A DNA stretch of 64,000 nucleotides, taken from positions 124,001 to 188,000 of the forward strand of contig WGMG01000006.1 in NCBI GenBank assembly GCA_016125185.1, given 5' to 3'. A model generated the notes under the pieces. It was not told where the DNA came from. It was given only the letters and a program-made list of their open reading frames with translations, and ran no database searches. This document shows, piece after piece, positions 38,149 to 45,610 of the stretch; the first letter of the stretch is position 1, and each line of letters opens with the position of its first letter. This DNA comes from Armatimonadota bacterium (lineage in GTDB: Bacteria > Armatimonadota > Fimbriimonadia > Fimbriimonadales > Fimbriimonadaceae). A program made the position numbers and the translations under genes.

Positions 38149-38176
38149 TTGACAGAGGCCCCCGACGTGGTATATT
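38149..38176 (+). promoter_or_regulatory. Strong sigma-70-type promoter of speD
   Basis: A perfect TTGACA (38149-38154), 16-nt spacer and TATATT (38171-38176). Transcription should start near 38183, giving a leader of about 220 nt before speD, unlike the leaderless pattern of most genes here. Confidence 0.75.
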
Positions 38177-38182
38177 TTTGAA

Positions 38183-38400
38183 TTGCGTCACACGGGTAAC
38201 CGAGTGGCTTCTGTGGAGTCAAATCCACAAAAGGCGAAAACTTAGACGAAGAGATGAGACTGACGGATGGCAACCGGGGAGGCTCAACGAGGTGCTAGAA
38301 CCAATCGCACAAGGTCGCTCGATTCAAATCGTCCCAATCTCGTCTGGTTTTCCGCGCAAGAGCAATCTTGTGTCTGCGCACGGTCAAGAAAAAGAGGAAA
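38183..38400 (+). ncRNA. Structured 5' leader of speD, candidate cis-regulatory RNA
   Basis: The leader folds into TGTGGA/TCCACA (38212-38217 with 38224-38229) and then a long closing stem made by 38236-38255 (GAAAAC...AGAC...GAGAT) with 38337-38352 (ATCTCGTCTGGTTTTC). Enclosed are GGCAACC (38269-38275) and GGTGCTAGAACC (38291-38302), which resemble the two most conserved blocks of the SAM-I (S-box) riboswitch, and an AAGAG at the J1/2-like position. The S-box P2 arm and pseudoknot seem shortened or absent, so it is either a divergent SAM sensor or a different RNA. Control of SAM decarboxylase by SAM or polyamine would make sense. Confidence 0.4.
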
Positions 38401-38406
38401 GTGTGA

Positions 38407-39024
38407 TTGTCGAACCTACCGATCATTTTCGTTAGCAGTCTAATGACTGCCGCTCTCGCTGCTGATCCCGAGAAGCTCGGCTTCATGGGATGGCTTCGCC
38501 GTCTTGTGGAAGGCAAGCCTAAATTTGAGCCGATGCAGGTGTCCGCACCGCCGCGCATCATCAACGAAGAAGGCTGGACCATGATCCAGTGCGACGACGA
38601 AGAGGCCTTCAACGAGTGGCTGGATAAGGACACTGAAGGACTTCCGTTCCGCTTAGGCGAAGAACCGTCGCTGGGCTCCCATTTGCTGATCGAGCTGTTC
38701 GGCTGCAATGGCGCGACGCTTGAGAAGGACGACACCGTTGGCGAGGCCATGGTCGACGCCGCGCGCGTCTCCGAGGCGACCATCGTCGCCGAATGCTTCA
38801 AGGAATTCAAGCCGTACGGCGTCAGCGGCGCGGTGATCATCCAGGAGTCGCACTACACCATCCACACGTGGCCAGAGCATGGCTACGCGGCTGTGGACCT
38901 GTTCTACTGCGGCGGCACCGTCAAGGTCCGACGCGCGGTCGAACTCCTGAAAGAGCGATTCCAGCCCGAGCGAATCAAGTTCCTCGTCGTGCGACGCGGA
39001 ACCCGAAGCGAAGTCGAGCGCTAA
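38407..39024 (+). CDS. speD: S-adenosylmethionine decarboxylase proenzyme with N-terminal extension
   Basis: The enzyme makes decarboxylated SAM, the aminopropyl donor for spermidine. The core (from about residue 80) has 'GSHLLIELFGCN' and the self-cleavage motif 'QESHYTIHTWPEHGYAAVD', where the Ser becomes the pyruvoyl cofactor. Usual bacterial SpeH enzymes are about 130 residues; this one has 205. The extra N-terminal region starts with a hydrophobic stretch ('LPIIFVSSLMTAALAAD') that looks like a signal or anchor. TTG 38407 is chosen because AGAGGA lies 8 nt upstream; ATG 38443 is also in frame. speE lies 6 kb away. Confidence 0.9.
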   Translation: MSNLPIIFVSSLMTAALAADPEKLGFMGWLRRLVEGKPKFEPMQVSAPPRIINEEGWTMIQCDDEEAFNEWLDKDTEGLPFRLGEEPSLGSHLLIELFGCNGATLEKDDTVGEAMVDAARVSEATIVAECFKEFKPYGVSGAVIIQESHYTIHTWPEHGYAAVDLFYCGGTVKVRRAVELLKERFQPERIKFLVVRRGTRSEVER

Positions 39025-44652: not shown

Positions 44653-44680
44653 ATCTATGTCACAATATCCGAGGTTAAAA

Positions 44681-45610
44681 ATGTCCAGCGACGCAACAGG
44701 AATTTTCATCAACGAGACCCACACTTCGGCCGCCATTTGGCAGTACCGAGTCGAGCGAATGATCCTCGAGGGAAAGACGCAGTACCAGACCTACCAAATC
44801 TGCGACATCCCGCGCTTCGGCAAGTCCCTGTTCCTGGACTACAACATCCAAACGTCCATTCTGGACGAGTACGTTTTTCATGAGTGTATGAGCCAGCCGG
44901 CCATGACGCTTCACCCCAACCCCAAGTCCGTCGTTGTTTGTGGCGGTGGCGAGGGCGCGACCCTGCGCGAGGCGCTGAAGCACAACACGGTCGAGAAGGC
45001 CATCATGGTCGATATCGACGAAGAATTGGTCGATATGGTGAAGGAGCACATGCCGGAGTGGCATCAGGGCGCGTTCGAGGACCCTCGCACCACCCTCCTC
45101 CACACCGACGCACGGCAATGGCTGGTTGACCACAAGGGCGCAGGATTCGACGTGATCCTGAGCGACCTGCCCAACCCCCATGAGGATGGCCCGGGCCAAT
45201 TCCTGTTTACGAAGGAATATTTCCAAATCGCGGCCGACGCGATGAGCGAGGATGGCGTGTTCGCCATGCAGGCGGGCTCGGCCAACGAGAACTACCCCGA
45301 ATGCATGGTCTCCTGCATTGAGACGCTGGAGAGTATGAAAGACGTTTTCCCCTATGTATACGGCTATTACGGTATCGTGTCCACCTTCTTCCAGCCGTGG
45401 GGCTTCGTGCTCGCGTCGAAGAAGCACGACCCAATGGCCCTGACGGTTGCCGAGATCGAAGATCGCTTTGCCAAGCGCGGCGTCAAGAATCGTTACTACA
45501 CCGGTCGCTTCCACCACGCCTGCTTCACCTTGCCGGAATATCTGGTTGAAGCTCAGAAGACCAGCGGTCGAATCCTCACCGATGCCGAGCCGTTTGTTTG
45601 GACGGCATAA
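44681..45610 (+). CDS. speE: Spermidine synthase
   Basis: SpeE transfers the aminopropyl group of decarboxylated SAM to putrescine (or a longer diamine). The 309-residue product has the N-terminal beta domain with 'SLFLDYNIQTSILDEYVFHE', the nucleotide loop 'VVCGGGEGATLREALKH', 'DARQWLVDH' and the catalytic 'FDVILSDLPNPHEDGP'. ATG 44681 is preferred because GAGG lies 7 nt upstream; ATG 44657 in frame would add eight residues. In place of the usual DSTDP motif it has Ser-Asp-Leu-Pro-Asn-Pro, as in some thermospermine-type or agmatine-using enzymes. Confidence 0.93.
   Translation: MSSDATGIFINETHTSAAIWQYRVERMILEGKTQYQTYQICDIPRFGKSLFLDYNIQTSILDEYVFHECMSQPAMTLHPNPKSVVVCGGGEGATLREALKHNTVEKAIMVDIDEELVDMVKEHMPEWHQGAFEDPRTTLLHTDARQWLVDHKGAGFDVILSDLPNPHEDGPGQFLFTKEYFQIAADAMSEDGVFAMQAGSANENYPECMVSCIETLESMKDVFPYVYGYYGIVSTFFQPWGFVLASKKHDPMALTVAEIEDRFAKRGVKNRYYTGRFHHACFTLPEYLVEAQKTSGRILTDAEPFVWTA

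Follow-up and report, generated by a model that had tools for sequence, protein, structure and literature searches.

A conserved, putatively regulatory leader RNA upstream of speD in Fimbriimonadaceae, with a mini-ORF overlapping the start of the gene

The window (the whole 64,000-nucleotide stretch of DNA analyzed here) carries speD, preceded by a promoter and a long leader (Table 1). Its assembly groups with the Fimbriimonadaceae, and its nearest relatives are named Fimbriimonas or Armatimonadetes MAGs. The speD product matches the S-adenosylmethionine decarboxylase models PF02675 (3.8e-36) and TIGR03330 (131 bits, cut-off 75.65), confirming the identity that an earlier note on this DNA had assigned to the gene. 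The reading frame begins at the TTG at 38407 and is directly preceded by an in-frame TGA, which excludes an upstream start and bears out the leader length of about 220 nt given in that note. The TTGACA/TATATT promoter yields two overlapping matches where 0.3 are expected; it lies where previously described as 'perfect', but is one base short of the consensus. Transcription probably starts near 38183, and in relatives the GGTATNNT box is found at a similar distance from the RNA. The leader region contains no terminator-like site, and its longest T run is four. Transcription attenuation is therefore unlikely, and this candidate mechanism was dropped.

Table 1. Features of the speD locus, in window coordinates.
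Feature	Position	Strand	Basis or remark
Sigma-70-type promoter, TTGACA-16-TATATT	38149..38176	+	11/12 consensus bases
Structured speD leader	38183..38406	+	Comparison of relatives' leaders
Helix P1 (CACACGG-GUAA-CCGAGUG)	38189..38206	+	Nearly invariant, hence without covariation evidence
Helix P2	38208..38233	+	8/9 pairs covary across relatives
Long-range helix P3, 5' strand	38236..38249	+	Anti-anti-Shine-Dalgarno in the proposed model
Variable insert within P3	38250..38339	+	64-140 nt in relatives; contains S-box-like strings
Helix P3, 3' strand	38340..38352	+	Its GGUUUUC block (38346-38352) complements the Shine-Dalgarno region
Hairpin P4, loop GCAA (38362-38365)	38355..38372	+	Covaries; wholly replaced in some relatives
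GUCUGCG	38372..38378	+	Invariant in 31/31 aligned leaders
Shine-Dalgarno GAGGA	38394..38398	+	GAGG invariant in relatives
Mini-ORF GTG...TAG (VIVEPTDHFR), out of frame with speD	38403..38435	+	Second start 4 nt upstream of TTG
speD, S-adenosylmethionine decarboxylase, TTG start	38407..39024	+	PF02675, TIGR03330

SpeD itself has an N-terminal extension of about 80 residues (window 38407-38680), conserved in about 50 relatives, in which a hydrophobic segment of about 16 residues is followed by a basic segment (WLRRL..K); the extension may serve as a membrane tether. About 5.6 kb downstream of speD, at 44657-45610, lies a polyamine aminopropyltransferase-like gene (NF002010, 247.8 bits, slightly below the cut-off of 260), which begins directly after the preceding ORF and has no leader. 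The same genome encodes a second PF01564 gene elsewhere.

The earlier note had suggested that the leader might be a reduced SAM-I riboswitch or else a new RNA sensing SAM or polyamines. The first of these readings draws on the order of AAGAG, GGCAACC and GGTGC in the window, on the consumption of SAM by the speD product, and on the occurrence in Bacilli of SAM-I variants that sense spermidine (PMC10853860). The S-box-like strings are present as text, but the insert that holds them is variable and they lack conservation: of 35 homologous inserts, 1 has GGTGCTAGAACC and 3 have GGCAACC. The conserved parts of the leader fall outside these strings. Rfam 15 gives no match at the gathering threshold across the whole window or in the speD leaders of 20 relatives, and the leader alone matches no family even at E ≤ 10, the SAM clan included. 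RF00162 is absent from 85 family genomes, whereas the identical search was positive in 3 of 14 control genomes. The leader thus shares a few short strings with RF00162 in the window's clade, but has different helices, and the probability that it is a reduced SAM-I riboswitch is close to nil.

The leader was compared using DNA upstream of speD from the family Fimbriimonadaceae and its order; speD is present in 78 of the 85 family genomes. A DNA search with the leader matches about 20 relatives, the seven nearest along its whole length and the distant ones mainly in a 45-nt block just upstream of speD. Nearly all family members have a leader of about 190-330 nt that begins a few nucleotides past the GGTATNNT -10 region. 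These leaders fall into three sequence types, 37 of them belonging to the window's type 1, and a (U)CGGGUUUCUC block occupies a comparable position in most leaders of all three types. At E<1e-3, a covariance model of type 1 (R1) finds type 1 leaders in 37 of the 85 family genomes. All of these matches map just upstream of speD by their coordinates, and no genome has a second copy elsewhere at that threshold. Across 206 other Armatimonadota (291 genomes in total), R1 adds weak, scattered matches, none of them convincing, and speD leaders in other genera are diverged. The idea that the element also serves other genes was accordingly rejected, as R1 places it on none. What survives of the earlier proposal is a structured cis-regulatory leader tied to speD, conserved across relatives and found on that gene only. 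This restriction speaks for control of the speD branch in particular, although autoregulation would give the same pattern, and against a general SAM sensor, since such a sensor should also occur on metK or met genes.

Type 2 leaders (n=20) possess their own covarying fold, with 152 double changes versus 44 in shuffled and 37-56 in slid versions; examples such as L155 and L024 show helices around GGUGCGUAACGUACGGCGGU and ACGAACGGCCUGCAGG...GUCGUUCGG. On this comparative evidence, the type 2 fold is a candidate for a separate RNA family. Two naturally shortened type 1 leaders, L165 and L175 (about 70-100 nt), have lost P2, P3 and the insert, retaining a 5' hairpin, GCGCACGG, GUGAGG and the mini-ORF; they possibly represent a minimal regulatory core. 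In one relative (L177 and G008 contig 145), speD occurs as two overlapping pieces in different frames, reflecting either a frameshift or an assembly error.

Single-sequence folding of the window's leader is uninformative (z -0.67; 48 of 200 shuffles equally stable), so the structural case rests on comparison. In the window's ensemble, P1 has pair probabilities of 0.99 and P4 of 0.57-0.74, while P3, which runs from G38236-C38352 through A38249-U38340, mostly reaches 0.85-0.96. The small hairpins noted before are thus found as P1 and P2. The long closing stem, P3, both forms in the ensemble and recurs with covariation in 31 relatives. These helices, together with a small helix by the Shine-Dalgarno, were tested on an alignment (A1) of 31 non-redundant type 1 cores from which the variable insert had been removed. 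The structure leaves 86.4% of cells paired and includes 19 pairs with double-sided changes. Such changes number 74 versus 25.5 in shuffles, and the covariation score is 0.242 versus 0.134 in shuffles (0 of 500 as high) and 0.05-0.10 in slid versions. Compensatory changes, which the earlier note had named among the checks to make, are therefore found in P2, P3 and P4. Support is best for P2, whose pairs are seen as GC, AU, UA and CG, and for P4, seen as AU/CG. P3 shows double-sided changes at four of nine pairs and one-sided changes at four, and in half the sequences its pair at columns 81/95 is not a canonical one. Covariation is uninformative for P1 and the outermost P4 pair, both of which lack variation. 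Unguided RNAalifold recovers the same helices. GCGU, CGG...CCG, GUCUGCG and the Shine-Dalgarno GAGG are among the columns that never vary. On these grounds, the speD leader almost certainly contains a conserved regulatory RNA.

Two other interpretations of the leader were rejected. Its SSGFPRKSNLVSAHG stretch looks codon-like; a reading as coding DNA fails because relatives carry frame-breaking single-base insertions and exchanged hairpins. An eye-catching strand exchange between 5' CCGUG and 3' CACGG by the Shine-Dalgarno covaries no more than shuffles do. A local CAC:GUG helix that flanks the Shine-Dalgarno is 72% paired but missing from the window clade, and counts as no more than a possibility.

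The conserved RNA could also be a binding site for a protein, SpeD itself (autogenous control) or another RNA-binding protein, with no small molecule involved. Association with a single gene in every genome is typical of autoregulation, and the basic segment that follows the N-terminal hydrophobic stretch of SpeD is unusual. However, with several helices and so much invariant sequence beyond them (GUCUGCG, GCGU), the leader resembles an aptamer more than a simple protein site, and we regard a protein-bound leader as improbable.

The Shine-Dalgarno lies outside the covarying helices and has its complement in the conserved GGUUUCUC strand of P3. The shared UCGGGUUUCUC block forms the 3' strand of P3 and is complementary to the Shine-Dalgarno plus the start region. 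The complementary elements differ between leaders: most type 1 leaders combine UCUCGC with GUGAGG, the window has GUUUUCC with GGAAAGU, and in types 2 and 3 GGGUUUCUC(CC) is complementary to GAGGGAAAC. The GGUUUCUC segment pairs with its own Shine-Dalgarno at a mean of -8.1 kcal/mol versus -7.5 for those of other species (permuted, P 0.0005), a difference slightly biased towards cognate pairing, since each segment was picked as the top motif match; shuffled segments get no further than -6.2 kcal/mol. By type, the cognate advantage has P 0.013 in type 1 and P 0.0055 in type 2, and is not significant in type 3. The window's own duplex is among the weaker ones (-5.6 kcal/mol), and the pairing has zero probability in its folded ensemble. 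The complementarity suggests a switch between P3 and an anti-Shine-Dalgarno duplex, which is a good model and not a demonstrated one. Neither this complementarity nor the overlapping mini-ORF figured in the earlier note.

The mini-ORF arises from a second start directly upstream of that of speD. Almost every leader reads xTGATTG, placing a GTG or TTG 4 nt before the speD TTG: GTG in most type 1 leaders, TTG in types 2 and 3 and in some of type 1. The triplet at -4 is GTG or TTG in 65 of 71 leaders, a count whose anchor requires GATTG or GAGTGG, so that conservation of the speD TTG is partly built in. Among the 65, 57 reach a stop within 12 codons, nearly always a TAG after 8-11. Judged against synonymous recoding with each gene's own codon usage, a stop within speD codons 2-13 is greatly overrepresented (43 of 46 distinct genes with a -4 start versus 9.5 expected, z 13.7). 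The excess persists in representatives below 75% identity (26 of 28 versus 5.9, z 10.6) and under a null with N-terminal codon usage (z 13.2). The other frame and 12 downstream control windows show no comparable excess (window z -2.0 to 0.7). The speD codon preceding the stop ends in T at 43 of 43 sites, versus 129 of 466 elsewhere in the segment. Changes at speD codon positions 1/2/3 number 376/276/361 in the overlap and 1771/978/3933 in a control block, indicating that third positions are not free there, no freer than first positions. The peptides vary in sequence and length (8-11 residues, mostly 9-10). These patterns make it highly probable that the mini-ORF is under selection. It is absent in several genera that retain the TTG start, and is thus not essential everywhere.

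Selection on the stop could also operate on a mini-ORF without any part in regulation. Next to a weak TTG, an out-of-frame start may be unavoidable, with the stop merely ending wasteful translation. Genes and genera without the -4 start also lack the TAG, as such an explanation would have it, and the peptide sequence is unconserved. The base before the TG is nevertheless G or T in 65 of 65 leaders with a TG there, never A or C, and the -4 start is kept although other genera show that it can be lost, which leaves the absence of a role doubtful.

A different reading takes the stop as a programmed +1 frameshift site, as in prfB and eukaryotic antizyme. Translation would start at the GTG or TTG and slip at UAG-C into the speD frame, stimulated by polyamines. 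The mini-ORF stop is TAGC at 41 of 43 sites, and a +1 step there lands exactly on the AGC serine codon of speD. In E. coli, polyamines are reported to promote initiation at UUG/GUG, read-through of UAG and the prfB +1 shift (PMC4405209). The codon before the UAG varies (UGU, CGU, UAU, GGC, CCU and others), however, leaving no slippery site, and in the speD frame the stretch before the UAG codes for an N-terminus that is hydrophobic (mean hydropathy +1.4) and conserved; direct initiation at the TTG is thus the default. Where the mini-ORF is lost, the speD TTG is retained with its Shine-Dalgarno spacing, and UAG-C is equally explicable if speD tolerates Ser, but not Asp, Glu, Lys or Asn, at that codon. 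Programmed frameshifting is accordingly very unlikely.

Our main reading, to which we assign a probability of roughly 0.6, is that the leader is a cis-regulatory RNA outside Rfam, dedicated to speD of the Fimbriimonadaceae and acting at translation initiation. With the GGUUUCUC strand paired upstream in P3, the Shine-Dalgarno would be free; with that strand paired to the Shine-Dalgarno, initiation would be shut off. Such translational on/off control through the anti-Shine-Dalgarno is somewhat favored. Ribosomes that load would start either at the upstream GTG or TTG, making a throw-away peptide of 9-10 residues, or at the speD TTG, and the RNA fold would shift the choice between the decoy and the productive non-AUG start; such start-site choice by the leader is plausible, at slightly under even odds. 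The signal would most likely be dcSAM or a polyamine end product such as spermidine, so that the committed aminopropyl-donor step would come under feedback control. Judged from the identity of the gene, a ligand from the polyamine pathway is an even bet; feedback by spermidine or dcSAM ranks before SAM, itself a poor candidate. Like riboswitches, the leader is a conserved, covarying RNA upstream of one metabolic pathway. That it constitutes a new riboswitch class, sensing a polyamine or dcSAM by choosing between the decoy mini-ORF and the speD start, is a tentative proposal, in line with the second suggestion of the earlier note.

In working principle, the nearest precedent is the odc1 motif (uORF-25-1) of alphaproteobacteria, a structured ornithine-decarboxylase leader with a UUG main start and a second UUG 5 nt upstream that opens an 11-residue uORF, both starts being active in reporters (PMC8632094). 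Both leaders are structured, precede a decarboxylase of polyamine synthesis with a non-AUG main start, place a second UUG or GUG start a few nucleotides upstream and out of frame to open a short uORF (spacing of 5 nt in odc1 and 4 nt in the speD leaders), and implicate the Shine-Dalgarno in base pairing. They differ in gene (odc versus speD), and the phyla are distant. Whereas odc1 consists of a single extended hairpin (about 80 nt) plus a pseudoknot, the speD leader has several helices over about 220 nt; leaving out L165 and L175, the speD leaders lack the odc1 arrangement of a single hairpin whose right shoulder holds the Shine-Dalgarno, alongside a 5'-to-loop pseudoknot. The odc1 peptide is highly conserved and fixed at 11 residues, while the speD mini-ORFs keep the UAG and vary in peptide and length. 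Measured against the published description of odc1, the speD leader therefore stands outside that motif in both architecture and peptide conservation.

The spermidine riboswitch, a SAM-I variant with a transcription terminator (PMC10853860), likewise acts on polyamine-synthesis genes, speD included, and makes end-product feedback a natural hypothesis. Its SAM-I four-stem fold with altered pocket positions is not found in the speD leader, which has no SAM-I match at E ≤ 10, nor is an intrinsic terminator. The polyamine modulon of E. coli, in which UUG/GUG starts and weak Shine-Dalgarno contexts respond to polyamines (PMC4405209), resembles speD in start codon usage, the response being a prediction for speD; the modulon is defined by measured response, whereas a conserved leader RNA with a mini-ORF plays no part in its definition.

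By comparative sequence analysis, the speD leader is a conserved regulatory RNA that matches no family catalogued in Rfam. A literature search, with subscription journals and supplements outside its scope, found no riboswitch or noncoding RNA described from Armatimonadetes or Fimbriimonas, a weak sign of novelty. Among bacterial RNAs that sense polyamines, a single class has been validated (13 sequences, mostly Bacilli), and odc1 is the one candidate, still unexplained. The speD leader would be a third, unrelated and speD-specific, with firm comparative support and a mini-ORF that appears to be under strong selection. This overlapping mini-ORF is its most interesting part. If the proposed mechanism is true, speD would be the second independent polyamine decarboxylase wired by start-site choice, after odc1, and adjacent non-AUG starts with an overlapping mini-ORF would represent a convergent bacterial device for polyamine feedback. 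Eukaryotic SAM decarboxylase mRNAs carry uORFs, to which the arrangement would be analogous. Whether upstream reading frames control SAM decarboxylase in bacteria as well as in eukaryotes is now a directly testable question.
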